Of a stretch of 30,970 nt of DNA, positions 2,789-26,299 are shown piece after piece; position 1 is the first letter of the stretch; each line of letters begins with the position of its first letter. This stretch comes from a virus. The notes under the pieces were generated by a model, which searched no databases, was not told the DNA's origin, and saw only the letters and a program-made list of their open reading frames with translations. Made by a program: the position numbers and the translations under genes. The stretch is from the IMG/VR virus record IMGVR_UViG_3300021976_000055, positions 1-30,970 of that record; one strand, written 5' to 3'.

Positions 2789-2881
2789 GTGACCGAACGC
2801 ATTACAATGCTGCCGACCAAGGGGATGCCGGATGAGGATCTCGCCCTCGGCCTGGTCATGGACGCACTAAGGGGAAAAAAT
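2789..2881 (+). CDS. Possible small ORF directly before the recombinase, end uncertain
   Basis: The frame from GTG 2789 (or ATG 2807) reads as a plausible acidic helix (MLPTKGMPDEDLALGLVMDA from 2807) up to the six adenines at 2875-2880. In its own frame it continues through the recombinase gene to a stop at 2999-3001, where it is clearly a shadow. A -1 slip on the A run would end it at TGA 2881-2883, overlapping the recombinase ATG as ATGA. I give the end as the A run; the true end is uncertain. Confidence 0.25.
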
Positions 2882-4388
2882 GAAGGCCGCCATGTACCTA
2901 CGGAGCTCAAAAGACCGCAGCGATGTGAGCCTCGCCGCTCAGCGCCGCGAACTCGAAAAGCTCGCGGCCTCACGCTCCTTGACGGTGGCAAAGACGTATG
3001 AGGACGCTGTCGAATCCGGATCGACCGAAAACCGCCCGGGATTCATTGAGTTAGTTCGGGCTCTCAAGCACTCCTCCCGAGGCTGGGAATACCTCCTCGT
3101 TTACGACACCAGCCGGATCGCCCGCCGGCGCTACATCGCCCAGGCCATCAAGCACGAGGCCAAAAAGCGCGGCGTCACTATCCTCTATGCCCGCATGCCC
3201 TCGGACTTGGACCCGGTCGCCGAGCTCGTGCTCGAGTCAGTCTTCGAAGCCATGGACGAGGCGCATTCGATCATGTCCCGGCAAAAGGGTTTGGCGGGCA
3301 TGGCGGAGAACGTCCGCCGCGGCTTCCGCGCCGGCGGCCGCGCGCCGATCGGCTACCAGCTGCAGGCCTTGACGACCGGTACCATCCGCGAGGGCTCGCC
3401 GGTCATGAAGTCCAAGCTCATGCCGGGCGCCGGCGCCGCCATGATCGGGGAGTACTTGACGGCCCGCGCCAATGGCATTCCCCGCACGATCGCCGCACGC
3501 AAGACCGGCATGCCGGCAACTTCCTTGATCGGCGTCGAATGGAACGCCCTCACCTACGCCGGGCACACCGTCTGGAATCGTCACGCGCCGAATGGCGGCG
3601 GCACGAAGATGCGGCCGCGCGCCGCCTGGCAAATGACGCGGGACACACATACGGCGCTCATCTCCGACGCCGCGGCCGAGACGATCCTGACCAGGCTGGA
3701 GACGAGCCACGTCGGCCGATCGGTGTCCCAGGCCATGGCCGCCAAGTCCGACTATCTCCTGACTGGCCTGCTCTACACCGGCGACGGTCAAATGTGGGTC
3801 GCCCATGGGAAGTACTACCGCTTGAAGCGCCGGGACGCTACCCCGGGCAAGACGGTCCGGGCGGACATGATCGAATCCGCCGTGCTCGAGCAGGTCGAGG
3901 CCGGCATGAAGTCGGACCTCTTCCTACGCAATCTCTTGATTGCCGCCCAGCGCAGCCGGCGTGCCGCGGATCCCGCCGCCGCCATCGATCAGCAGATCGC
4001 GAAGCTCGAGAAAGAAAAGGGCCGCGCGGCGGAGCTCGCCCTCACCTCGGACGCCGACACGTTCACCGCGATCGTCGAGGAGCGCGGCCGGCATATCGAG
4101 TCATTGCGCCGAGAAGCCGACGCCGTGCGGCAGGACGACACCGTGTCGAAACAGTTGGCGGCGATGACCGTCGACCAGCTTCGCGGGTTGCTCGCAGATC
4201 AGAGCCGGGAGAAGGCGCTGCAGACCCTGGTCGATCGAATCGTGCTCGAGCGCGACCTCACCTGTCAGATAGAACTCAAGGCCGTACCGGGCCGGCAAAG
4301 ACGGTGGCCAGGTGTGGCGTCCCCACAGGTACGCGATAGCTGGCCACCTGAGCTAATTCAGCGGGTTACGTTGAAGCGGATCGCGTAA
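2880..4388 (+). CDS. Large serine recombinase (phage integrase)
   Basis: The 502-residue protein has the large-serine-recombinase layout. The N-terminal resolvase-type catalytic domain (residues 1 to about 145) contains YLRSSKD, in which Ser10 is the likely nucleophile that attaches to DNA, and a later YDTSRIARR segment with catalytic arginines. The recombinase DNA-binding domain follows (about 150-290), then a region equivalent to the zinc ribbon, then a coiled coil (about 365-430). The zinc-ribbon region reads LLTGLLYTGDGQMWVAHGKYYR and lacks the usual four cysteines; the protein has only one Cys in total, near the C terminus. Start ATG 2880 follows AAGGGGAAAAA. These enzymes recombine attP with attB without host factors and usually need a directionality factor for excision; no candidate for that factor stands out here. 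Confidence 0.92.
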   Translation: MKAAMYLRSSKDRSDVSLAAQRRELEKLAASRSLTVAKTYEDAVESGSTENRPGFIELVRALKHSSRGWEYLLVYDTSRIARRRYIAQAIKHEAKKRGVTILYARMPSDLDPVAELVLESVFEAMDEAHSIMSRQKGLAGMAENVRRGFRAGGRAPIGYQLQALTTGTIREGSPVMKSKLMPGAGAAMIGEYLTARANGIPRTIAARKTGMPATSLIGVEWNALTYAGHTVWNRHAPNGGGTKMRPRAAWQMTRDTHTALISDAAAETILTRLETSHVGRSVSQAMAAKSDYLLTGLLYTGDGQMWVAHGKYYRLKRRDATPGKTVRADMIESAVLEQVEAGMKSDLFLRNLLIAAQRSRRAADPAAAIDQQIAKLEKEKGRAAELALTSDADTFTAIVEERGRHIESLRREADAVRQDDTVSKQLAAMTVDQLRGLLADQSREKALQTLVDRIVLERDLTCQIELKAVPGRQRRWPGVASPQVRDSWPPELIQRVTLKRIA

Positions 4389-18210: not shown

Positions 18211-18450
18211 TCATAAAGCCTCGCCGCGTTTCACAGAGCACCCTACGCAATACGCGTCGGGGTCAATGCCGCTCCATAAGTGTATATGCGGCATGTCCTC
18301 CGGCTGCGTCGTGGTGGTGTAACGGAGCGAGACCGTCGGGCGTTTCTTCGCCGCCTGACGCTTCAATTCAAGATCAAGGAGGTAGGCCGCGACCTTATTG
18401 GGCAGGATTTTGCGCACTTGGCCGCAGAGCCCGCACGGTTTGCCGCTCAT
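18211..18450 (-). CDS. Small Cys-pair protein in the head-tail region
   Basis: The 79-residue protein has CGLC at residues 6-9 and CVGC at 68-71, giving four cysteines that could bind one zinc ion. Between them are a basic helix (about 15-38) and an MPHIHLWSG strand. Similar small proteins occur between connector and head closure genes in some phages; their role is not known. Start ATG 18450 overlaps the connector stop (ATGA). Confidence 0.6.
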   Translation of the reverse strand: MSGKPCGLCGQVRKILPNKVAAYLLDLELKRQAAKKRPTVSLRYTTTTQPEDMPHIHLWSGIDPDAYCVGCSVKRGEAL

Positions 18451-18920
18451 ACGCCCATCCCGCGGCGGTAGGGCATCAGCAAACTGATCGCGCGCTGCTC
18501 GAGCAATTCGAAATTATCGGTGTTCCGATCGAAGAGCGATTCCATGTAGAGCAGGATCGCGCAGTAGATATCGCGGCGCGCCGGCCCGGTATCGCTGGTG
18601 CCATGAATCGGGTTGCACTGCCAGTAATAGCGCCAGTTCTCAGGCGCCCAGCCCTCGCAGGGTTCGTCATACCAGCGCGGCCGCAAATCGCTCTCGGCCC
18701 AGCGGTACTGTTTGGGATCGGGCGTCGCCTTGGCGTTCGAATCTTTGGCCTGGTTGTCCAAGATCATGAGCTCGCCCAAGGTGCGCTCGGTGAAGTTCTC
18801 CGCCCAGTCCTCGGCGCCGCCGATCAGAAGATTCAGGCGCCGCTCGTAAACCGACTGCAGCCCCTCATCGAGCGAGAGTTGCGCGAGGGCGTCTTCGATT
18901 TGAATGTAGGTGCCGCTCAT
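18447..18920 (-). CDS. Head-tail connector protein (gp6-like)
   Basis: The 157-residue protein is mainly helical, with an N-terminal ALAQLSLDEGLQSVYERRLN region and a C-terminal RRDIYCAILLYMESLFDRN segment followed by a SLLMPYRRGMGV ending. The last motif is characteristic of the HK97 gp6-like connector family (PF05135), which forms a ring under the portal. Start ATG 18920 overlaps the stop of the HNH gene. In most relatives this gene follows the capsid gene directly; here the accessory block separates them. Confidence 0.88.
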   Translation of the reverse strand: MSGTYIQIEDALAQLSLDEGLQSVYERRLNLLIGGAEDWAENFTERTLGELMILDNQAKDSNAKATPDPKQYRWAESDLRPRWYDEPCEGWAPENWRYYWQCNPIHGTSDTGPARRDIYCAILLYMESLFDRNTDNFELLEQRAISLLMPYRRGMGV

Positions 18921-19426
18921 CGATAGGCCTCCGCGATCGCCTTGGCGACTGGTAGAAAAGCTTCAAAGCCCCAGTTCATTAGCGCGGAATTTACGCACAT
19001 GAGGACAACCCGGCAATTGCGCTTGGTGTACCCGCCGCCAGCTATGACGCGATCCACGCTAGGAGTGTACGGCCCTTTTATCGCCGACATGTCGAATGGA
19101 AGCGCGCTTATCTCGCATATCCCGGCTTCAAGCCGCTGGATTAGCCAATCGCAATCCAAATCGAATTCCCAACCCTCAGCTTTTGAGCGTCGCCGAATAT
19201 TCCTCAGCAGTTCATTGGCCCGCCACGGGATATTCCCGGCTTTTTTGACGCGCTGCAGTTCGATCCATTGAGGATCCTTGCGCTTCGTTTTCTCGACCGC
19301 GCAACGGCATGCCTTGCACCAAATGTGCAAACCGTCACTTTTCTTAATGTTCTTGTTTTTATGGAAATGAACGGGAGAGAAAAAACGAGTGCACTTCGAG
19401 CATCGTCGCAACGGCGTGCAATCCAC
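18917..19426 (-). CDS. HNH endonuclease with N-terminal zinc finger
   Basis: The 169-residue product has an N-terminal CxxC...CxxC finger (RRCSKCTRFF, then WCKACRC) and a C-terminal HNH-type core: GICEISALPFD, then PSVDRVIAGGGYTKRNCRVV, and ALMNWG. The central His of the classical motif is not obvious, but Asp-Arg and the late Asn are in place. It resembles free-standing homing or packaging-associated HNH proteins. I chose GTG 19426, 8 bases after the stop of the glycosyltransferase gene; no good ribosome binding site is seen. The gene is visibly richer in A and T than its neighbours, which suggests recent acquisition. It marks the edge of the accessory block. Confidence 0.75.
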   Translation of the reverse strand: MDCTPLRRCSKCTRFFSPVHFHKNKNIKKSDGLHIWCKACRCAVEKTKRKDPQWIELQRVKKAGNIPWRANELLRNIRRRSKAEGWEFDLDCDWLIQRLEAGICEISALPFDMSAIKGPYTPSVDRVIAGGGYTKRNCRVVLMCVNSALMNWGFEAFLPVAKAIAEAYR

Positions 19427-19434
19427 ATTTTGGA

Positions 19435-20163
19435 CTAACGATAGTGTTCGTGTATCCAAGCGTGCTTCCTTTTCATCAAGTCCTGCCAAGGGTCGCAATG
19501 TCCGTGCATTATCACGATTTTAGCGGTGGGCGGAAGCGCTCCGCCCTTCGGCGCGATCTGATTGCGGTAGGAGAATACGCCGTCGGCATGCGTGAACTTC
19601 GCCTCATTGGGTCCTAAGCAGGCGCCGATCCACGCTTGGTCGGAGCCGATGTATTTCAGCTTCAGGCCGATTTGCGGTGAGGTCAGGGGATCGAACTGCT
19701 CCCACACCTGCAGCCGGCTACCCGCGGTCATCTGGATCAGGGAGCCGTTGTAGGGCGTTCCTCGCGCGGTGTCGCCGTACATTTTAAAATCGAGATCGTG
19801 ATCGAAAAGCGCGGTGATGTCGGCGCAGATGACCACGTCGAGGTCGATTGAAACGAATCGCGGCCCGAAGAGATCAGCAGCCTCTCGAGAGAACATTTTA
19901 AGGCGTCGATAGCAGCTTGGGTTTCCACGACCGTGCGGGCTGGGAATGTTGGCATAGTCGCTCCATAGGGTCAGGGTGCGAACTTCCGGCCGGATACCAG
20001 CCGGGTCATCGGTCACGCAGACGAGCTCGAACGGCTTGTGATAGTGACGCGTCAGCATGGAATACAGGGTATTGACCGTCTCGGGTGAGAATTTCGAGCG
20101 GTAGCCCAAAGGCGGCCGCCACTTAAAACAGATAAATGCCAAGCGCTCGGCCGACTCGTTCAT
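19435..20163 (-). CDS. GT8-like glycosyltransferase
   Basis: The 242-residue protein has a GT-A type nucleotide-sugar fold. The metal-binding DxD is seen as SIDLDVV (residues 105-111), SDQAW lies at 174-178, and the C-terminal HGHCDPW (220-226) resembles the HxxGxxKPW motif of GT8 enzymes. The first strand (LAFICFKW) and VTDDP at 50-54 also agree. It would transfer a sugar from a nucleotide donor with retention of configuration; donor and acceptor are unknown. I chose ATG 20163, overlapping the GT2 stop. There is no signal or membrane segment, so it acts in the cytoplasm. Confidence 0.75.
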   Translation of the reverse strand: MNESAERLAFICFKWRPPLGYRSKFSPETVNTLYSMLTRHYHKPFELVCVTDDPAGIRPEVRTLTLWSDYANIPSPHGRGNPSCYRRLKMFSREAADLFGPRFVSIDLDVVICADITALFDHDLDFKMYGDTARGTPYNGSLIQMTAGSRLQVWEQFDPLTSPQIGLKLKYIGSDQAWIGACLGPNEAKFTHADGVFSYRNQIAPKGGALPPTAKIVIMHGHCDPWQDLMKRKHAWIHEHYR

Positions 20164-20891
20164 GGATAGATCTGCTTGTAAGGGAAGGTTCGGGTGAGCG
20201 GGCGCCAATTGGGGATGCGGTCGCGCTCGATCTTGCGCCGCGGGATTTCAACGTCATCGACGCCCTTGACCTTGCGTTCGTAATGCACGGTCGAGGCATC
20301 GGCGATGGTTTCACGGGGAACACGGATGACCGACCAGCCGAGCATGACGGGGTCGCCGGCGAAGCGGCGCACCTCCTCGCGAAAGAGCGCATCGGTGCCG
20401 TACAGGCCAGCGAAGCGCTCATCGTAGCCGCCGATCTCCCAGTACATGGCGGCGCTCATCAGCCAGGTGTTCGGATGCGGCTTGTAGGGCGTCAAGAGCG
20501 GCTCGCCGTCAGGACCACTCCCTTCCCAGGTATCGCGGCCGAAGCGATACACGGTGCGCGGATTCAACTTCGCGGCTTGAATGAAATTCCAGGTAGCCGC
20601 CGGCACCAGATGATCCATATCGGTCAATAGCAGCCAGGGCGCACGGGCGAAATGGGCGCAGACGTTGCGCGCCGCGTCCTGATTCCAGCGCACATCGACA
20701 CCGATCTTGAAGATTCGAAGGACGCAGCCGATCTCGAAGCCCTGCGCATCGCCATCGGGCGAACCGTCATCGCAGACGAGCACCTCGATATTCTCGCGAC
20801 AGCGTAACGGCAGCGCCGCAATCCGCGTCAACTGCTCGCGCAACATTTGCTGGTTGCGGTAATAGGGCAAGCACAGGGCTACGCGGCGCAT
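20160..20891 (-). CDS. GT2-family glycosyltransferase
   Basis: The 243-residue protein shows GT2 (GT-A fold) motifs: a first strand with LCLPYYRN, CDDGSPDG (residues 40-47), the DxD-type LLTDMDHLVP (88-97), and a GGYDERFAGLYGTDALF segment (154-170) like that of chondroitin-polymerase-type transferases. No membrane segments are present, so it is a soluble enzyme rather than a lipid-linked synthase. Start ATG 20891 overlaps the DUF115-like gene by 13 bases. Substrates are unknown. Confidence 0.85.
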   Translation of the reverse strand: MRRVALCLPYYRNQQMLREQLTRIAALPLRCRENIEVLVCDDGSPDGDAQGFEIGCVLRIFKIGVDVRWNQDAARNVCAHFARAPWLLLTDMDHLVPAATWNFIQAAKLNPRTVYRFGRDTWEGSGPDGEPLLTPYKPHPNTWLMSAAMYWEIGGYDERFAGLYGTDALFREEVRRFAGDPVMLGWSVIRVPRETIADASTVHYERKVKGVDDVEIPRRKIERDRIPNWRPLTRTFPYKQIYP

Positions 20892-21499
20892 GCGGCCTCG
20901 CGCTCGAGCGTCTTGCGGTCAATCGGCCGGAACCAGCGCGGCCCCTTCTTACCGGCGACGGAGACCACGATCTGCGCGGCCAAGAATTGCTGCGCGGCTG
21001 GCTCGAACTGGCCGGACCACTCGGCGAGCTTGCCGCCGCTCGAGCCGCCGCCATTCTTCCACGCATAGTCTGGGAACCAATGTCGCTCACCGCGGGGACC
21101 TAAGGCCATATCGAACCCGACGAGAAAAATCGCGCGCGGCCGCATCTGATAGGCCAAGTTCAAGGCACAGAAGCCGGAGTGGGTCCCGTTGAGTCGGTGC
21201 GGCGCGCCGTCCGGGGCGCGCTCGGCCATGATCGTCGAGGTGTGATCGCACTCGAATGGCACGATCGGGCGAATATTCAGGACGTTCTTGAGCGTCGAGG
21301 CCCGTAGCCAGATCGGTTTCTGCAGCCGACGCAGGCTCTCGACTCGGGCCTCCGCCCACATCCGATCCATTGAGAGGCATATATCCCACCGCGGCAGATA
21401 GTGAGCCGAATCGTTAACCGCAATGATCGTCCCGGGGAGCTTGGCGAGATTGAACTGCGAGGCTGACCAGCCGCCGGCGACGATGGTAATCGAGCTCAT
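20879..21499 (-). CDS. DUF115/Maf-like putative glycosyltransferase
   Basis: The 206-residue protein starts with a Rossmann-type ITIVAGGWSA, followed by GTIIAVNDSAHYLPRWDICLSMD, the pattern of DUF115/MptE-like and GT42-like proteins. Later it has GTHSGFCALNLAYQ (residues 105-118), IFLVGFDM (124-131) and HWFPDYAW (140-147). DUF115 forms the core of Maf proteins, which transfer nonulosonic acids to flagellin Ser/Thr residues. An SGxxAxxLA...GFD...HW arrangement is shared with the DUF115-like frame at 23909-24622. Transferase activity is inferred. Start ATG 21499 overlaps the methyltransferase stop. Confidence 0.65.
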   Translation of the reverse strand: MSSITIVAGGWSASQFNLAKLPGTIIAVNDSAHYLPRWDICLSMDRMWAEARVESLRRLQKPIWLRASTLKNVLNIRPIVPFECDHTSTIMAERAPDGAPHRLNGTHSGFCALNLAYQMRPRAIFLVGFDMALGPRGERHWFPDYAWKNGGGSSGGKLAEWSGQFEPAAQQFLAAQIVVSVAGKKGPRWFRPIDRKTLEREAACAA

Positions 21500-22155
21500 T
21501 GGGCCTCAAAGAGGTGAGTCTCGAACTTGATCCCATCGTGGATCAGGGCGACGTGGCGGAACTGCGCCGTCATCGTCCGCATCCAGTCATGGGAGCGCGC
21601 CTCATCGCGGCAGCGTCGCCCGCCGCGCATGTCGACGATGATCTTGGTCTGCCCGGCGATCGAGGCGCTCTTGACCAGGTCCATATAACGCTCTGGCGGA
21701 TAGTGAAAGCACCAGGACTTGAAACTCACCACCAAGTCATAGAACCGCGGCGCCCGTCGGTGCGCATCGTTCGCGTCGATAAAATCAACCTGCTCGAGAC
21801 CATTTAGCTTCAAGAACCGCCGCGCCGCGTCGCGATTGGAGAACGTCTCGTTGTGTTTCACCATGTCGGGCGCGTCATCGACGCCATCGAGCAAGGTCAC
21901 CCTGCACTGATCGCCGAAGTGACGCGCCAAGAGCACATCGATGCCGCCCATGCCGGAACCGATGTCGAGCACCGCATCGCAGCTCGCCGGTAGATACGGT
22001 TCGATGCAATCGAACTCGCTATAGAGGGCATCGGCATAGAGCTGCAGCCAGGCCCCGGGATCATCGACCATGTCGGCGATCGCGCCGCGCTGCAGTTGCA
22101 AATACGGGTACGCCTCGAGCGGCACGGTCAATCCTAAGTCGCGATCGGCGCTCAT
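21496..22155 (-). CDS. Class I SAM-dependent methyltransferase
   Basis: The 219-residue protein has the SAM-binding motif I VLDIGSGMGGID (residues 62-73), an acidic strand TLLDGVDD after it, and a later DLVVSFKSWCFHYPPERYM segment (motif IV/V region). It belongs to the class I fold and resembles small-molecule or sugar methyltransferases more than DNA methyltransferases, since no DPPY-like motif is present. I chose ATG 22155, overlapping the next methyltransferase stop (ATGA). It probably modifies a sugar made by the neighbouring enzymes. Confidence 0.8.
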   Translation of the reverse strand: MSADRDLGLTVPLEAYPYLQLQRGAIADMVDDPGAWLQLYADALYSEFDCIEPYLPASCDAVLDIGSGMGGIDVLLARHFGDQCRVTLLDGVDDAPDMVKHNETFSNRDAARRFLKLNGLEQVDFIDANDAHRRAPRFYDLVVSFKSWCFHYPPERYMDLVKSASIAGQTKIIVDMRGGRRCRDEARSHDWMRTMTAQFRHVALIHDGIKFETHLFEAQ

Positions 22156-22640
22156 GGTTCGAAGGTCCATACGTTGCCGGCCAGGAGCGTCCAGTCGGGA
22201 AGCTCTTGATCGAGCGCGACGGCGACGGTCAGCCAATTCGCGTCATGGCCCGTCAGCAAGCCGCCGCGCTTGACCTTTGGACGCCAGGCACGGATATCCG
22301 CGGCCACGCTGTCGGTGTCATGGCTCGCGTCGATGAACACGAAATCGAGATGCCTGTCCGGGATTCTGTTTGCCGCCTCCAGCGTCGATTCTTTTAAGAT
22401 TTCGCAGCGCTTCGGGAAGACTTCGGCAATGCGCCGGACCAGGCTCTCAGCGTGAACCATATCCTTGGTGGCATACGGTCCCTCGGCTTTCCAATGATCG
22501 ACGCCATAGAGATACAGCTGCGGGAACGCCTCCAGTAAATAACCGAAGAGAGCCCCTTGCCAGACGCCCAATTCGGCGCCGATCCGCCAGCCTCTCGAGC
22601 GAATCAGGTCGGTCAACACTTCTTTTCGGCCTTGGCTCAT
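22152..22640 (-). CDS. Class I SAM methyltransferase (Methyltransf_24-like)
   Basis: The 162-residue protein has motif I as AELGVWQGA (residues 22-30), a YGVDHW strand (46-50), FVFIDASHDTDSVAADI (100-116) and GGLLTGHDA (126-134). The FIDxxHxYxxVxxDI arrangement is typical of Methyltransf_24, often found in sugar or macrolide O-methylation clusters. I chose ATG 22640, which overlaps the stop of the GT-D fusion gene; the frame to 22721 is a shadow. The product is compact, with the catalytic core only. Confidence 0.8.
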   Translation of the reverse strand: MSQGRKEVLTDLIRSRGWRIGAELGVWQGALFGYLLEAFPQLYLYGVDHWKAEGPYATKDMVHAESLVRRIAEVFPKRCEILKESTLEAANRIPDRHLDFVFIDASHDTDSVAADIRAWRPKVKRGGLLTGHDANWLTVAVALDQELPDWTLLAGNVWTFEP

Positions 22641-23800
22641 GATTTCTCGGCAATCACGGACAGATCCTTGCCGATGCCGGCCTGGCATTGCCAGCCGAGC
22701 GCACGCAGCTTCTCGATCCACACCGACGGCGGATGCATGGAAAGATGCGCGTTGCGCCCGTCCGGCAAAATCGCATTCGCGGGCCGGGTCGAGATCACGA
22801 AATAGGCCACTTTCCCGGTAAGGCGCCAGAGGTGATCGAGCACCGAATCCAGTTTCTCCGGCTCCACGTGCTCGAGGACGTCGGTGCAGATGATGAGATC
22901 ACAGGGCTTCGGCATCGAGGCGCGCTCCGGGATGCCCGGGTCATACCCCAAGACGCGGATGGGCTTCAACGCCGCCGCCAATTTATTTTCCCCGCAGCCG
23001 TAATCCAAAATCGTCGCCGGTTGATAGTCCTCAATCAGCCGCCGCACGATCGCCTCGTGCTTGGCGCCGTCCGCGCCCCAGGAGCGCTTGGCATGGAGCG
23101 CAGTCAACTGCGCGCGGTATGCCGGGGAGGTCATGTCATCGAGCGAGTAGCGATAGGCGCCGGCGTGCCTTGCGAACATCCCAATGTGGCCGAGATCAAG
23201 TGCATGCACGCCTTTTTTCGCGAGTCGATACGCGAGCGCCGTCGCCGCGGTCCCCAAACAGATCAGCACCGTCGCGGCTGGCCGGCCGACCTCCTCCTCG
23301 ATGCGATCAAGCTCCGCGTAGGCGTGCTGGCGCGGCCCGTGCACCTCGCGAATGCTGCGCGCCTCGTTGCCCATCATCTCGGTCGTGATCGATTTCTTGT
23401 CGCCCGAGACCAAGACGATATCTTTATCCCGCCAGAGCGCGCGCACTTTTTCCCAATAATCCGGGCGGTCGATCCAGGGCGCGTTGTCGGGGCGCGTAAT
23501 GAAGCTCGAGTGATAGGTGCCCTTCGCGCTCAAATGCTGGACGTAGAGCGGCTGCGTGTAGCGGATCCAGGACTCACGCCGCGGGCAGTCGCCCAACGGG
23601 TTCGGGATCCCGACCAAGCACCCATTGGGATGACCGAGAATGAACTTCAATTCGGTCGCAAGCTTCGGATCCGGTCGCTGCGAGGTGCAGCCGCCGCCGA
23701 CGGCGACGCGCCACTCGCCATCGCCGAAGCGCGCGATCGAGGAATAGGCGAGCGCGGCCAACGTATCATCTTCGCTCACGATCGGCGGGTAGGTTTTCAC
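22637..23800 (-). CDS. GT-D glycosyltransferase fused to a SAM methyltransferase
   Basis: The 387-residue protein has two domains. Residues 1 to about 235 form a GT-D (DUF1792) domain: SIARFGDGEW (21-30), a central IVLVSGDKKSI (128-138), and LICLGTAATALAYRLAKKG (179-197) followed by ALDLGHI (200-206). Residues about 240-387 form a class I methyltransferase, with ILDYGCG (264-270), GYDPG (285-289) and CTDVLEHVEP (305-314). GT-D domains extend O-linked glycans on streptococcal serine-rich adhesins. The fusion suggests transfer of a sugar followed by its methylation. Start GTG 23800 overlaps the preceding stop (GTGA). Confidence 0.82.
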   Translation of the reverse strand: MKTYPPIVSEDDTLAALAYSSIARFGDGEWRVAVGGGCTSQRPDPKLATELKFILGHPNGCLVGIPNPLGDCPRRESWIRYTQPLYVQHLSAKGTYHSSFITRPDNAPWIDRPDYWEKVRALWRDKDIVLVSGDKKSITTEMMGNEARSIREVHGPRQHAYAELDRIEEEVGRPAATVLICLGTAATALAYRLAKKGVHALDLGHIGMFARHAGAYRYSLDDMTSPAYRAQLTALHAKRSWGADGAKHEAIVRRLIEDYQPATILDYGCGENKLAAALKPIRVLGYDPGIPERASMPKPCDLIICTDVLEHVEPEKLDSVLDHLWRLTGKVAYFVISTRPANAILPDGRNAHLSMHPPSVWIEKLRALGWQCQAGIGKDLSVIAEKS

Positions 23801-23991
23801 TTTTCAGTGTCGTCGAGGAGACTGACGGCGAGATTCATGCCGACCAGCTTGCAGCCCAAGCGAATCATCGTGACTCCATACAGGATGAGCGCTCTGGCAA
23901 CGCCATATTTATAGCGAAAGAGCGGCGAGATTTTGATCTCGACGGTGAGATTGGAGAGCTTCGGGCTGAATGATTTGGGAAACATCGCCAT
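23797..23991 (-). CDS. Small hypothetical protein in the glycan block
   Basis: The 64-residue product starts at ATG 23991 behind AGAGG and overlaps the 3' end of the DUF115-like frame by 83 bases. It has alternating hydrophobic residues (LTVEIKISPLF) and a moderately hydrophobic helix (VARALILYGVTMIRLG). No family recognised. It is coupled to the GT-D fusion by a 4-base overlap. Confidence 0.5.
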   Translation of the reverse strand: MAMFPKSFSPKLSNLTVEIKISPLFRYKYGVARALILYGVTMIRLGCKLVGMNLAVSLLDDTEK

Positions 23992-24622
23992 CGGGGAGTG
24001 CCTCTTGAATCGTCGACCGCGCGAAGCATGTCAGTGCGGTTGCGCGACTGCAATTGATTATTTCGAGCCCAACTTCTTTCGCATCGAGGGCCAAGCGGTT
24101 CATCGCCTTGACCCACTGCGGATAGCGCCCGCCGTTGCCCAAGCCCCGCGGATGATCACCGTGCCAATGCGTGCGGCCGCGTGAGCGCTGGAAATCAAAC
24201 CCTAAGAGCAAAATCCGCTTCACCCCAAAAAGATGCGCAAGGCCGATCGCCTGATAGCCGGAATTGAAGCCGGTGTGAATGTGATTGGGCGATTTGGAGA
24301 GGCCCGCCTGATCGAGCCCATAGACCCAATGCAGCTTGTACTGATCGCGCGAGGCGGACGCGACGGTCCAGAGCTGCGCACCGGTGAAACTCTTCGCAAG
24401 CTCCGCGAAGTACGTGTTCCACCAGGTCGCATCGCACGCGTACAGCGCATCCGCCCAGGGCGCTAGTCGGAAGCTCGTGTTGACGACGATCGTTTTGCAT
24501 TTCCCCTGGCACCACGCCGCGTCTTCACGGGTGGAACTGGGTCCGGAGGCGATGATGGCGCAGGTGTCGCCGGCCCACTGTCCGTGCGCTTTCCCATAGC
24601 GGGCGGCGATGGCAGTGGGAAT
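23909..24622 (-). CDS. DUF115/Maf-like protein without a usual start codon (frameshifted?)
   Basis: The frame is open from 24743 to the TAA at 23911-23909. From about 24620 it reads as clear coding sequence: GDTCAIIASGPSSTREDAAW, then VVNTSFRLAPWADALYACDATWW, FNSGYQAIGLAHLFG, RILLLGFDF, THWHGDHP and INCSRATALTCF. This is the DUF115/MptE-like pattern, seen also in Maf transferases. No ATG, GTG or TTG occurs upstream of GTG 24223, which lies in the middle of the domain. It is in the -1 frame relative to the preceding gene, which is coding up to about 24610. Either a -1 frameshift joins the two, an ATT (24622) is used, or a base is missing in the CCC at 24619-24617. The 5' coordinate is therefore approximate. 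Confidence 0.65.
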   Translation of the reverse strand: MPTAIAARYGKAHGQWAGDTCAIIASGPSSTREDAAWCQGKCKTIVVNTSFRLAPWADALYACDATWWNTYFAELAKSFTGAQLWTVASASRDQYKLHWVYGLDQAGLSKSPNHIHTGFNSGYQAIGLAHLFGVKRILLLGFDFQRSRGRTHWHGDHPRGLGNGGRYPQWVKAMNRLALDAKEVGLEIINCSRATALTCFARSTIQEALPDGDVSQIIQPEALQSHRRDQNLAALSL

Positions 24623-24852
24623 CCTTTTTCCACCATCGCCAATTCTTTTCCCGGGACTTGCGCTGCCTTCGTCAGGGGCGCCGCGGCGAAGGCCTGCCGG
24701 CGCTGCGGCTGCGGATCGTCGGCCAAGGGCTCGAGCCAGGGCGGTTTACGCACCGCCAACACCTTGCCGTAGGATTCTTCGCACCAGAAGATCTCGCCTG
24801 CGCGGATGAATCCATACGGGCTCTGCCAGCTCGTCAGTGCTTTTGCTTTCAT
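24463..24852 (-). CDS. Small protein after the capsid gene; N-terminal part of a possible fusion
   Basis: From ATG 24852 (GGAG 9 bases upstream) the first 85 or so residues are convincing: ALTSWQSPYGFIRAGEIFWC and a VLAVRKPPWLEPLA segment, like the small proteins that often lie next to phage capsid genes, then a helical linker. After about 24600 the frame turns into a Pro/Ser/Arg-rich shadow of the DUF115-like gene and runs to 24463. Two heptamers of the G GGA AAR type lie in phase, GGGAAAA at 24652-24646 and GGGAAAG at 24595-24589, and a -1 slip at either would fuse it to the DUF115-like domain. Alternatively a lost base broke a single gene. I cannot tell these apart. Confidence 0.55.
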   Translation of the reverse strand: MKAKALTSWQSPYGFIRAGEIFWCEESYGKVLAVRKPPWLEPLADDPQPQRRQAFAAAPLTKAAQVPGKELAMVEKGFPLPSPPAMGKRTDSGPATPAPSSPPDPVPPVKTRRGARGNAKRSSSTRASD

Positions 24853-24946: not shown

Positions 24947-26299
24947 TTAAGTGCTGGTTCCCGCCGGGAAATTGCCATAGACGAACGCCGCCGGCCGCGT
25001 GACCGCGAGCGCCAAGCGCTCTTCGCACAAGATGGTCACGAGATTGCGCACGAAATCATCCTGATCTTCGGTCGAGACCAGAATCTGCGCTTGCTCGCGA
25101 TCAAAGAGCATCGCCGCCAACTTAAACGCCCCCACCAGGAAGTCCCCGACGTGCATGGAGTCCGACTGCACCACCGGCAGGCCCCAGATCATGGCGGGAA
25201 TCGAGCCCATCGGCTGCGCCAGGATGTAGCGGTCTTGGCTGTCCTTGGTGAGTTCGATGTTGTGCCAATCAACCGGCGACATGACGGCGCCCGAGGCCGG
25301 GTAGAACGCCAAGCGGACCTGCAAGATTGCATGGCGAATCACATCGATGAAGGTGTCAGTCGCCTTGGCGAAGGCGCCGCTATACACCGTCGCCTGCGGC
25401 ACGATGCCCTGCAGATGCTCACCCGTGCCATCACCAAAGAGGAGCTCATGCTCTTCGGTCAATTTCAGGCCGAAGTTCAAGCGCGCATCGATCAGCGCCG
25501 CCAGCTGCTGGAAGTCGGCGAGCACTTGCTTCGAGGCCTTGATCCAGTGGGCGATGGTCGTCACCGGCACGTTCAAGCGGCTGTAGGTGATATCGGACTG
25601 CGGCTTCAAAGCCCCTTCCGAGACCACTCCGGCATTATTGGTGAAGACATTTTCCTTCACCCAGTAGATCAAATCCGTGCCCGTGGTACCGCCGGCGAGC
25701 AAATCTCGCACGGTCAGGTTCTGTAGGTACGGAACGACGACCGTCGGCAAATACTCGGGCGTGATGCCCTCACCGGCGCTGCCCGCGAGGCTCGTGATCG
25801 TCTTCAGTTGGAAGGGGCGCGACATGTGCTTGCCGGTGCCCTTGCCGATCGGCACGAAGTTTTTGAATTCCTCCGACTCGATGTACTGCTGGCCGATGGA
25901 CTTGGGCGGCCCCTTGCGACCCCCGGTGAGGCCCGTTGCGATCTTCTGCTCGAGGAGCACGATGCGCCGCTCGTTATCCGCCTTGTAATCGGCGAATTCG
26001 CCCATCAATTTGCCGCCGTCCTTGTTGAGCTTATCGACGGCCTCTTTGGTCGATTCCTGGATCTTGCCGAAGGTTTTGACATCCTCGGCGGTCTTGTCGA
26101 TCACGACTTTGACGGTGTCGAAGTGCTTACCTAAGGCCTTTTCGATCGCGGCCTTCAACTTCTCGCCGTTCTCCGCCTCATCGGCGAGCGCCATCGGCCC
26201 GTGGTAGAGGTAGCTTTCTTCCTGCGCGCGATCCCACTCGAGGGTCGCCATATCGAGTACGCCGCGCGTGATGATGCGCTGGCCTTGTGTGCGTTTCAT
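24947..26299 (-). CDS. Major capsid protein, HK97 fold
   Basis: The 450-residue protein has an N-terminal delta/scaffold-like coiled-coil region (about residues 40-125), a linker with GRKGPPKSIGQQYIESEEFKNF, and the HK97 coat domain. Typical segments are GEGITPEYLPTVVVPYLQNLTVRDLL, the ELLFGDGTGEHLQGIVPQA loop, a MSPVDWHNIELTKDSQDRYIL helix, WGLPVVQSD, and a C-terminal EERLALAVTRPAAFVYGNF. The delta domain is expected to be removed by the adjacent protease. Start ATG 26299 follows AAGGA nine bases upstream. Confidence 0.95.
   Translation of the reverse strand: MKRTQGQRIITRGVLDMATLEWDRAQEESYLYHGPMALADEAENGEKLKAAIEKALGKHFDTVKVVIDKTAEDVKTFGKIQESTKEAVDKLNKDGGKLMGEFADYKADNERRIVLLEQKIATGLTGGRKGPPKSIGQQYIESEEFKNFVPIGKGTGKHMSRPFQLKTITSLAGSAGEGITPEYLPTVVVPYLQNLTVRDLLAGGTTGTDLIYWVKENVFTNNAGVVSEGALKPQSDITYSRLNVPVTTIAHWIKASKQVLADFQQLAALIDARLNFGLKLTEEHELLFGDGTGEHLQGIVPQATVYSGAFAKATDTFIDVIRHAILQVRLAFYPASGAVMSPVDWHNIELTKDSQDRYILAQPMGSIPAMIWGLPVVQSDSMHVGDFLVGAFKLAAMLFDREQAQILVSTEDQDDFVRNLVTILCEERLALAVTRPAAFVYGNFPAGTST

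Follow-up and report, generated by a model that had tools for sequence, protein, structure and literature searches.

The stretch of DNA analysed here (the window) is IMG/VR virus record IMGVR_UViG_3300021976_000055, 30,970 bases in length. Its − strand carries, in order, genes for a terminase large subunit, a portal, an S78 protease and an HK97-type capsid protein, then a block of glycosyltransferase- and methyltransferase-like genes, and then connector, head completion and tail genes. The block is bounded upstream by the major capsid protein (MCP) gene (24947..26299, −; HK97 fold, PF05065 1.9e-48) and downstream by a gene assigned by position to the head-tail connector (18447..18920, −; no Pfam match). 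Its first two reading frames, a small gene directly behind the MCP gene (g10) and a DUF115 domain (g9, here DUF115A), are the main subject of this report and are very probably, judging from sequence comparison, expressed together as a frameshift fusion.

The zero-frame product of g10 (24463..24852, −) has 129 amino acids and consists of a beta-rich domain of ~42 residues, a linker and a basic tail rich in Pro, Ser and Thr (phrog_2616 family; AlphaFold2 (AF2) model). For g9, no ATG, GTG or TTG was found ahead of the first conserved loop, I-A-S-G-P-S (GPS loop). The g9 frame begins inside g10, one base back, and is open far upstream of its first ATG/GTG/TTG, which lies at 24223 within the domain; g9 is therefore not an independent gene started at one of these codons. 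The preliminary description of this DNA had listed g9 as a separate gene, overlooking both the absent start codon and the probable frameshift. Within the overlap, the slippery heptamer G_GGA_AAA is located at 24646..24652 (−; read 24652-24646), in the zero frame of g10. Four nucleotides past it, a hairpin (24604..24641, −) is formed by a 12-bp stem, TGGCGATGGTGG/CTGCCATCGCCG with G-U pairs allowed (arms 24641-24630 and 24615-24604), and a 14-base loop; no other tested position in the locus was as strong. A −1 shift at the heptamer would give a g10-DUF115A fusion of 314 amino acids (23909..24852, −; complement(join(23909..24646,24646..24852))), which matches phrog_4603 over the full g9 domain (2.5e-51) and was modelled by AF2 with a predicted local distance difference test score (pLDDT) of 88.6.

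The A5 run a little further downstream (within ATGGTGGAAAAAGG) was considered first, as the place of a sequencing indel, and was given up in favour of the upstream G_GGA_AAA, since most close relatives have the heptamer and not the A5 run. The closely related contig L002, 95% identical over g9, has the same g10/g9 layout, so a base-calling error does not account for it. Assembly error and pseudogene formation were likewise rejected, the arrangement being common to L002, dozens of other contigs and isolate genomes.

A further 80 viral loci and 73 bacterial ones, each aligning to DUF115A, were surveyed for the arrangement. In short, stop-to-stop frames were extracted, start codons, frame relative to g10 and heptamers were scored, and g10 homologs upstream were sought by iterated profile searching for its domain. 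A start codon ahead of the GPS loop was absent in 68 of 147 distinct DUF115A domains. For 57 startless domains a g10 homolog was found upstream, and the two overlapped in the −1 frame in every case (57/57, against 0/57 for +1). Another twelve DUF115A domains overlapped g10 in this way and had some start codon in the open stretch. For the paralog DUF115B (g4 family), a start codon was present in 24 of 24 cases. In one locus, L046, g10 and DUF115A are a single in-frame gene (1.8e-8) behind its MCP gene; a second, weak candidate for an in-frame fusion was found in L048.

Heptamers of the classic type, X_XXY_YYZ with Y = A or T, occurred 45 times in the phase of g10, compared with 9 and 2 times in the other phases. 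When each 60%-identity cluster was counted once, 16 of 31 clusters had an in-phase classic heptamer (6 and 2 in the other phases). GGGAAAA, AAAAAAA, CCCTTTG, CCCAAAG and other heptamer types occurred, differing from cluster to cluster and also inside clusters, a pattern that suggests conservation of slipperiness and not of the exact sequence. Across 69 loci, a classic site was present in 38, an in-phase X_XXY_YYZ with Y = G or C in 17, and neither in 14. Many of these 14 keep C_CCT or C_CCC in phase, which might slip, more weakly, with one tRNA. In several prophage-like loci (L120, L122, L123, L128, L139, L149, L155 and L159, from Pandoraea, Bordetella, Achromobacter, Paracoccus and other bacteria), DUF115A lies in the −1 frame of g10 and no classic heptamer is present; C_CCT or C_CCC in phase is common among them.

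Downstream structure was assessed by ranking the best perfect-stem hairpin starting 4-12 nucleotides past the heptamer against other positions of the same locus. Over 38 loci the median percentile was 0.05, so that the hairpin beats ~95% of same-locus positions. Among related loci the stem sequences differ and still pair (GGCGATGG/CCATCGCC, GAGACAG/CTGTCTC, GGAGACGG/CCGTCTCC). Automatic minimum-energy folding of the same region gave a modest mean z of only −1.0; the position-matched stem test was the more informative. In pairs of related loci, the g10 frame was the better conserved upstream of the heptamer (29/29 pairs) and the DUF115 frame downstream of it (26/29). As judged from these alignments, the conserved frame switches at the heptamer.

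The fusion lies directly behind the MCP gene in 68 of 68 loci with a recognisable MCP, with 209-627 nucleotides between the capsid gene end and the GPS loop. DUF115A genes with an ordinary start mostly do not adjoin a recognised capsid gene. Phages mEp235, TC7 and vB_MseS-P1 have a related capsid gene followed by a stand-alone g10 homolog, with no annotated glycosyltransferase there; g10 thus seems to be an ordinary post-capsid protein that has gained an enzyme.

The same layout was recovered from isolate genomes. In phage D3 and five D3-like records, C_CCA_AAG, a heptamer described as highly shift-prone in E. coli (PMC5009743), is in phase with orf6.5, and orf7 is in the −1 frame; because its annotated start is an internal codon, orf7 in the D3 record lacks the first strand and the loop. 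Phages Psp6 (T_TTT_TTG) and S20 (C_CCT_TTG) are organised in the same way.

Residues 1-42 of g10 form a small beta-rich fold with one helix (AF2 pLDDT ~95 for residues 1-40), and the shift site is carried by the flexible linker that follows. The phrog_2616 family took in 32 of 47 g10 members. Foldseek with g10 gave no significant match against PDB (best YqbF, probability 0.66, E 0.36); against viral models it returned many small uncharacterised phage proteins at E >= 1.5e-3. For DUF115A, phrog_4603 ('alpha-2,3-sialyltransferase') matched 39 of 39 members and PF01973 gave a weak match (E <= 0.01) in 36 of 39; in the window the PF01973 match (1.1e-4, 22.4 bits) is under the 34.6 cut-off. The best functional fold neighbours of DUF115A in Foldseek were sialyltransferases, with a weak match to ST6GALNAC2-CMP (probability 0.99, E 4e-3, template modelling (TM) score 0.42). 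The structure search proposed in the preliminary description thus yielded a sialyltransferase match of this weak kind for DUF115A and no significant PDB match for g10. PDB sequence searches with g10, DUF115A and g4 returned noise only, plus very weak matches to Cst-II. Glycosyltransferase activity of the fusion is likely, as far as family matches and models can indicate. Comparable proteins are the Maf glycosyltransferases, which O-glycosylate flagellin and whose PF01973 domain is similar to Cst-II (PMC11339370).

Behind g9, the block continues on the − strand with g8 (23797..23991), an uncertain open reading frame of 64 amino acids, and g7 (22637..23800), a fusion of a GT-D glycosyltransferase (PF08759 9.2e-27, 94.7 bits, above the cut-off of 27) and a methyltransferase (PF13489 1.1e-8). 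The GT-D part of g7 is related to TIGR03728 (SP_1767 family; 3e-26, 92.4 bits) without being a member, as the match is under the 290.75 cut-off. The SP_1767 family acts in adhesin O-glycosylation, and O-glycosylation of proteins is the role of known members of both the DUF115/Maf and the GT-D/SP_1767 families. Next come g6 (22152..22721), a methyltransferase (Methyltransf_24, MT24; PF13578 4.5e-17); g5 (21496..22158), a weak class I methyltransferase (PF13649 6.4e-5), the start of which was placed by comparison with L002, which aligns from residue 27 of the longer open reading frame; and g4 (20879..21499), the second DUF115/sialyltransferase-like protein (DUF115B), with an ordinary start (phrog_4603 2.3e-16, weak PF01973). 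The block ends with g3 (20160..20891), a GT2 glycosyltransferase (PF00535 8.2e-8); g2 (19435..20208), a GT8-like glycosyltransferase (phrog_1962 glycosyltransferase 2.9e-10, no Pfam match); and g1 (18917..19498), an HNH/endonuclease VII-like protein (phrog_3322 2.6e-24). Pfam and PHROG matches thus agreed with the gene content given in the preliminary description: a GT2, a GT-D/methyltransferase fusion, a GT8-like protein, two DUF115-like proteins, two methyltransferases and an HNH protein, all on the − strand. Its statement that the genes are mostly coupled by 4-base overlaps was not borne out; such an overlap was found at three of eight junctions (g8/g7, g5/g4 and g1/connector), the remaining ones measuring 7 to 85 bases.

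Conservation of the block was examined by searching with g7, which gave 27 IMG/VR loci, followed by tblastn of all window proteins against these loci. The order g9-g7-(g5)-g4-g3-g2 between the capsid and connector genes was kept in ~20 of the 27, so the block is far beyond chance. The shared core has the order DUF115A, GT-D/methyltransferase, methyltransferase, DUF115B, GT2 and GT8; in isolate phage S20 it is present with gaps, as homologs of g9, g7, g3 and g2 at the same place. With S20 and ~20 contigs sharing it, the composition is not unique, contrary to the earlier remark that no described set of this composition was known. In locus L018 unrelated terminase and portal genes flank the set, from which g9 is missing; the cassette travels yet remains among head genes. 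The HNH protein g1 and the MT24 methyltransferase g6 had been counted among the module parts and are here regarded as accessory, not core, because tblastn found no g6 at this position in the relatives compared and g1 was found outside the window only in the nearest relative, L002. Outside the window g8 too recurs only in L002, without a family match, and may be no gene at all.

Three other features of the window were also recorded. A phage-encoded CsrA homolog lies outside the head operon at 303-500 (+; PF02599 6e-23), and a protein at 2880-4388 (+), on the strand opposite to the late genes, has an N-terminal serine recombinase domain (PF00239, 1.7e-19). The hub and large tail protein (12699-7819, −) match the phiJL001 gp84 and GTA-type (gene transfer agent) Rcc01698 families, so the tail tip is of the gene-transfer-agent type.

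We propose, as a reasonably probable overall reading, that a module in the late operon builds a virion glycan and that its first enzyme is made by programmed −1 frameshifting. Most ribosomes translating g10 would complete the zero frame and produce g10, and a fraction would move back by one base at G_GGA_AAA, with the downstream hairpin assisting, to give the g10-DUF115A fusion. The fusion would be a capsid-adjacent head domain bearing a glycosyltransferase with a sialyltransferase fold; it would start or extend virion glycans, bring the enzyme to the head and set the ratio of enzyme to head protein. The GT-D/methyltransferase, DUF115B, GT2, GT8 and methyltransferases would then extend and methylate the sugar using donors from the host, since CMP-sugar synthetase and NAD-epimerase families were not found in 11 records of 31-44 kb, some of which may be incomplete. 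The resulting glycan would be short and probably methylated, and the virion protein bearing it would most likely be the capsid or g10. That the virion is the target is somewhat favoured, and the case for capsid tethering as the purpose of the fusion is evenly balanced. The preliminary description had likewise put forward a glycan-building module with a virion target; this is still the best reading, and it now draws on more than gene position, the first enzyme very probably being encoded as a frameshift extension of the post-capsid gene in the 68 of 68 loci with a recognised capsid gene.

Several points weigh against this reading. A classic heptamer is missing in 31 of the 69 loci, including 14 with no in-phase heptamer at all; the 31 loci would need weaker one-tRNA slips, such as at C_CCT, or another mechanism. 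One close lineage, L011, has no classic site. D3-like phages have GTG (TTG in one) in the DUF115 frame, so they alone are no proof of frameshifting. The loci are kin, so that p-values overstate and counts are not independent. The sialyltransferase fold match is weak (Foldseek TM ~0.4), and capsid binding by g10 is suggested by gene position. Comparison among loci supports the frame arrangement, the slippery site, the hairpin, the selection switch and the position behind the capsid gene; the occurrence and rate of the frameshift, the glycosyltransferase activity, the virion target, the donor sugars and the order of action are inferred.

Frameshifting would be dispensable if DUF115A were initiated at a non-standard start through translational coupling inside g10, or were reached by transcriptional slippage. 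ATT, ATC or CTG is indeed in frame in some loci, and the D3-like phages have the GTG or TTG already mentioned. However, near-cognate codons (CTG/ATT/ATC/ATA) are also absent in 22 of the 57 startless loci, the g10 stop usually lies downstream of the DUF115A domain start and so leaves no stop-start coupling, the relation is −1 in every case, and the in-phase heptamers are of many kinds, GGGAAAA and CCCTTTG having no long homopolymer. The in-frame fusion in L046 speaks in the same direction, and we regard a frameshift-free origin as improbable. A frameshift could also serve to exchange tails: the Pro/Ser/Thr-rich zero-frame tail of g10 would be the glycan acceptor, replaced by the enzyme in the shifted product. 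Measured from 48 nucleotides ahead of the GPS loop, this frame of g10 remains open over a median of 41 codons; the corresponding figure is 20 in DUF115A genes that lack the arrangement, and the S+T+P fractions are 0.36 and 0.28, respectively. The overlapping DUF115 frame partly dictates this composition, which was not accepted as proof of an acceptor; no known acceptor motif was recognised in the tail, and the exchange is an unlikely explanation.

Other targets than the virion were weighed on the same loci. Many temperate phages carry host-modifying glycosyltransferases, and a module that changes the host envelope, for superinfection exclusion or seroconversion, would make the late-operon position incidental. 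Phage D3 is seroconverting, through other genes (PMC12373910). The late head-operon position is, however, kept in all core relatives, the enzyme is fused to a post-capsid protein, no obvious membrane segments were seen in the block enzymes (none over 1.6 on the Kyte-Doolittle (KD) scale), and the GtrA flippase family (PF04138) was not found in the 11 records; an envelope target is rather doubtful. Modification of the phage DNA would have a precedent, as phage glycosyltransferases that decorate DNA are known (Pyle 2024, as cited in PMC12619734). Against this, the block sits among head genes, the relatives of DUF115 and GT-D are protein glycosylation families, and thymidylate synthase (ThyA, PF00303) was not found in the same, possibly incomplete, records. 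The absence of ThyA and GtrA makes thymidylate-synthase-type DNA hypermodification and gtr-type O-antigen conversion unlikely, and DNA as the substrate is very improbable.

Most known cases of phage frameshifting concern tail chaperones and structural extensions. The −1 frameshifts of tail assembly chaperones, lambda G/GT included, resemble the virion-glycan module proposed here in using a late structural gene, a heptamer of the G_GGA_AAG kind and a minor, C-terminally extended product. They differ from it in that the present site is in the head locus behind the capsid gene, has a hairpin just downstream and adds a glycosyltransferase domain; the tail-chaperone site is a separate locus. In the window, a likely tail assembly chaperone pair lies at 16426-15795 (−), a 98-amino-acid open reading frame followed by Phage_tail_T (PF06223 2e-10), and may be a second frameshift locus. 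Capsid or tail proteins extended by frameshifting are found in T7/T3 (10B), Lactobacillus A2 and Listeria phages (Ig-like extensions; PMC5009743), and there too a −1 shift in head genes gives a minor, longer product. In the present case it would be the small post-capsid g10 that is shifted, and an enzyme domain that is added. Maf flagellin glycosyltransferases (PF01973) share a DUF115/MptE-like domain related to the Cst-II sialyltransferase and a role in protein O-glycosylation; the phage domain, in contrast, is single and short, scores under the Pfam cut-off and is very probably joined to a head domain.

Virion glycosylation by phage-encoded glycosyltransferases is documented for mycobacteriophages, with glycans on capsid and tail tube (Freeman 2023, as cited in PMC12619734). 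That system belongs to other phages and, as far as the cited account goes, comes with no mention of a frameshift fusion; glycosylation was shown there and is a prediction here. Proteins of the phrog_4603 type also occur among head or morphogenesis genes in D3 (orf6.5/orf7), P1/P7 (hdmA-D, pmgN-P) and S20, where they are annotated as separate or truncated genes with no frameshift noted. In P7, hdmB begins with an ATG of its own, and hdmA is not homologous to g10. The P1-like P7 (L188, 2811-5508) and RCS47 (L192) carry a DUF115 protein with an ordinary start and a glycosyltransferase in the hdm/pmg morphogenesis operon, which in P7 is under a C1 operator. Phages were already known both to use frameshifting in structural genes and to have glycosylated virions. 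The combination, a capsid-adjacent protein extended by an enzyme or a phage frameshift with a glycosyltransferase or sialyltransferase, was not found described in the literature searched, which left most subscription journals outside.

The arrangement explains why annotators cut or miss an 'alpha-2,3-sialyltransferase' behind many capsid genes, as in D3, S20 and Psp6. If the proposed reading is true, the joining of a head domain to a sugar-transferring enzyme by frameshifting is a new use of recoding. It would also offer a way to tell from the genes which phages glycosylate their particles; for mycobacteriophages, this property has been linked to immune recognition. Whether this is a widespread system of tailed phages could go either way; in it, a frameshift behind the capsid gene would produce a capsid-tethered glycosyltransferase, and particles would bring along their own enzyme as the head is assembled, slippage determining the ratio. 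The finding suggests that these phages sugar-coat their own particles.

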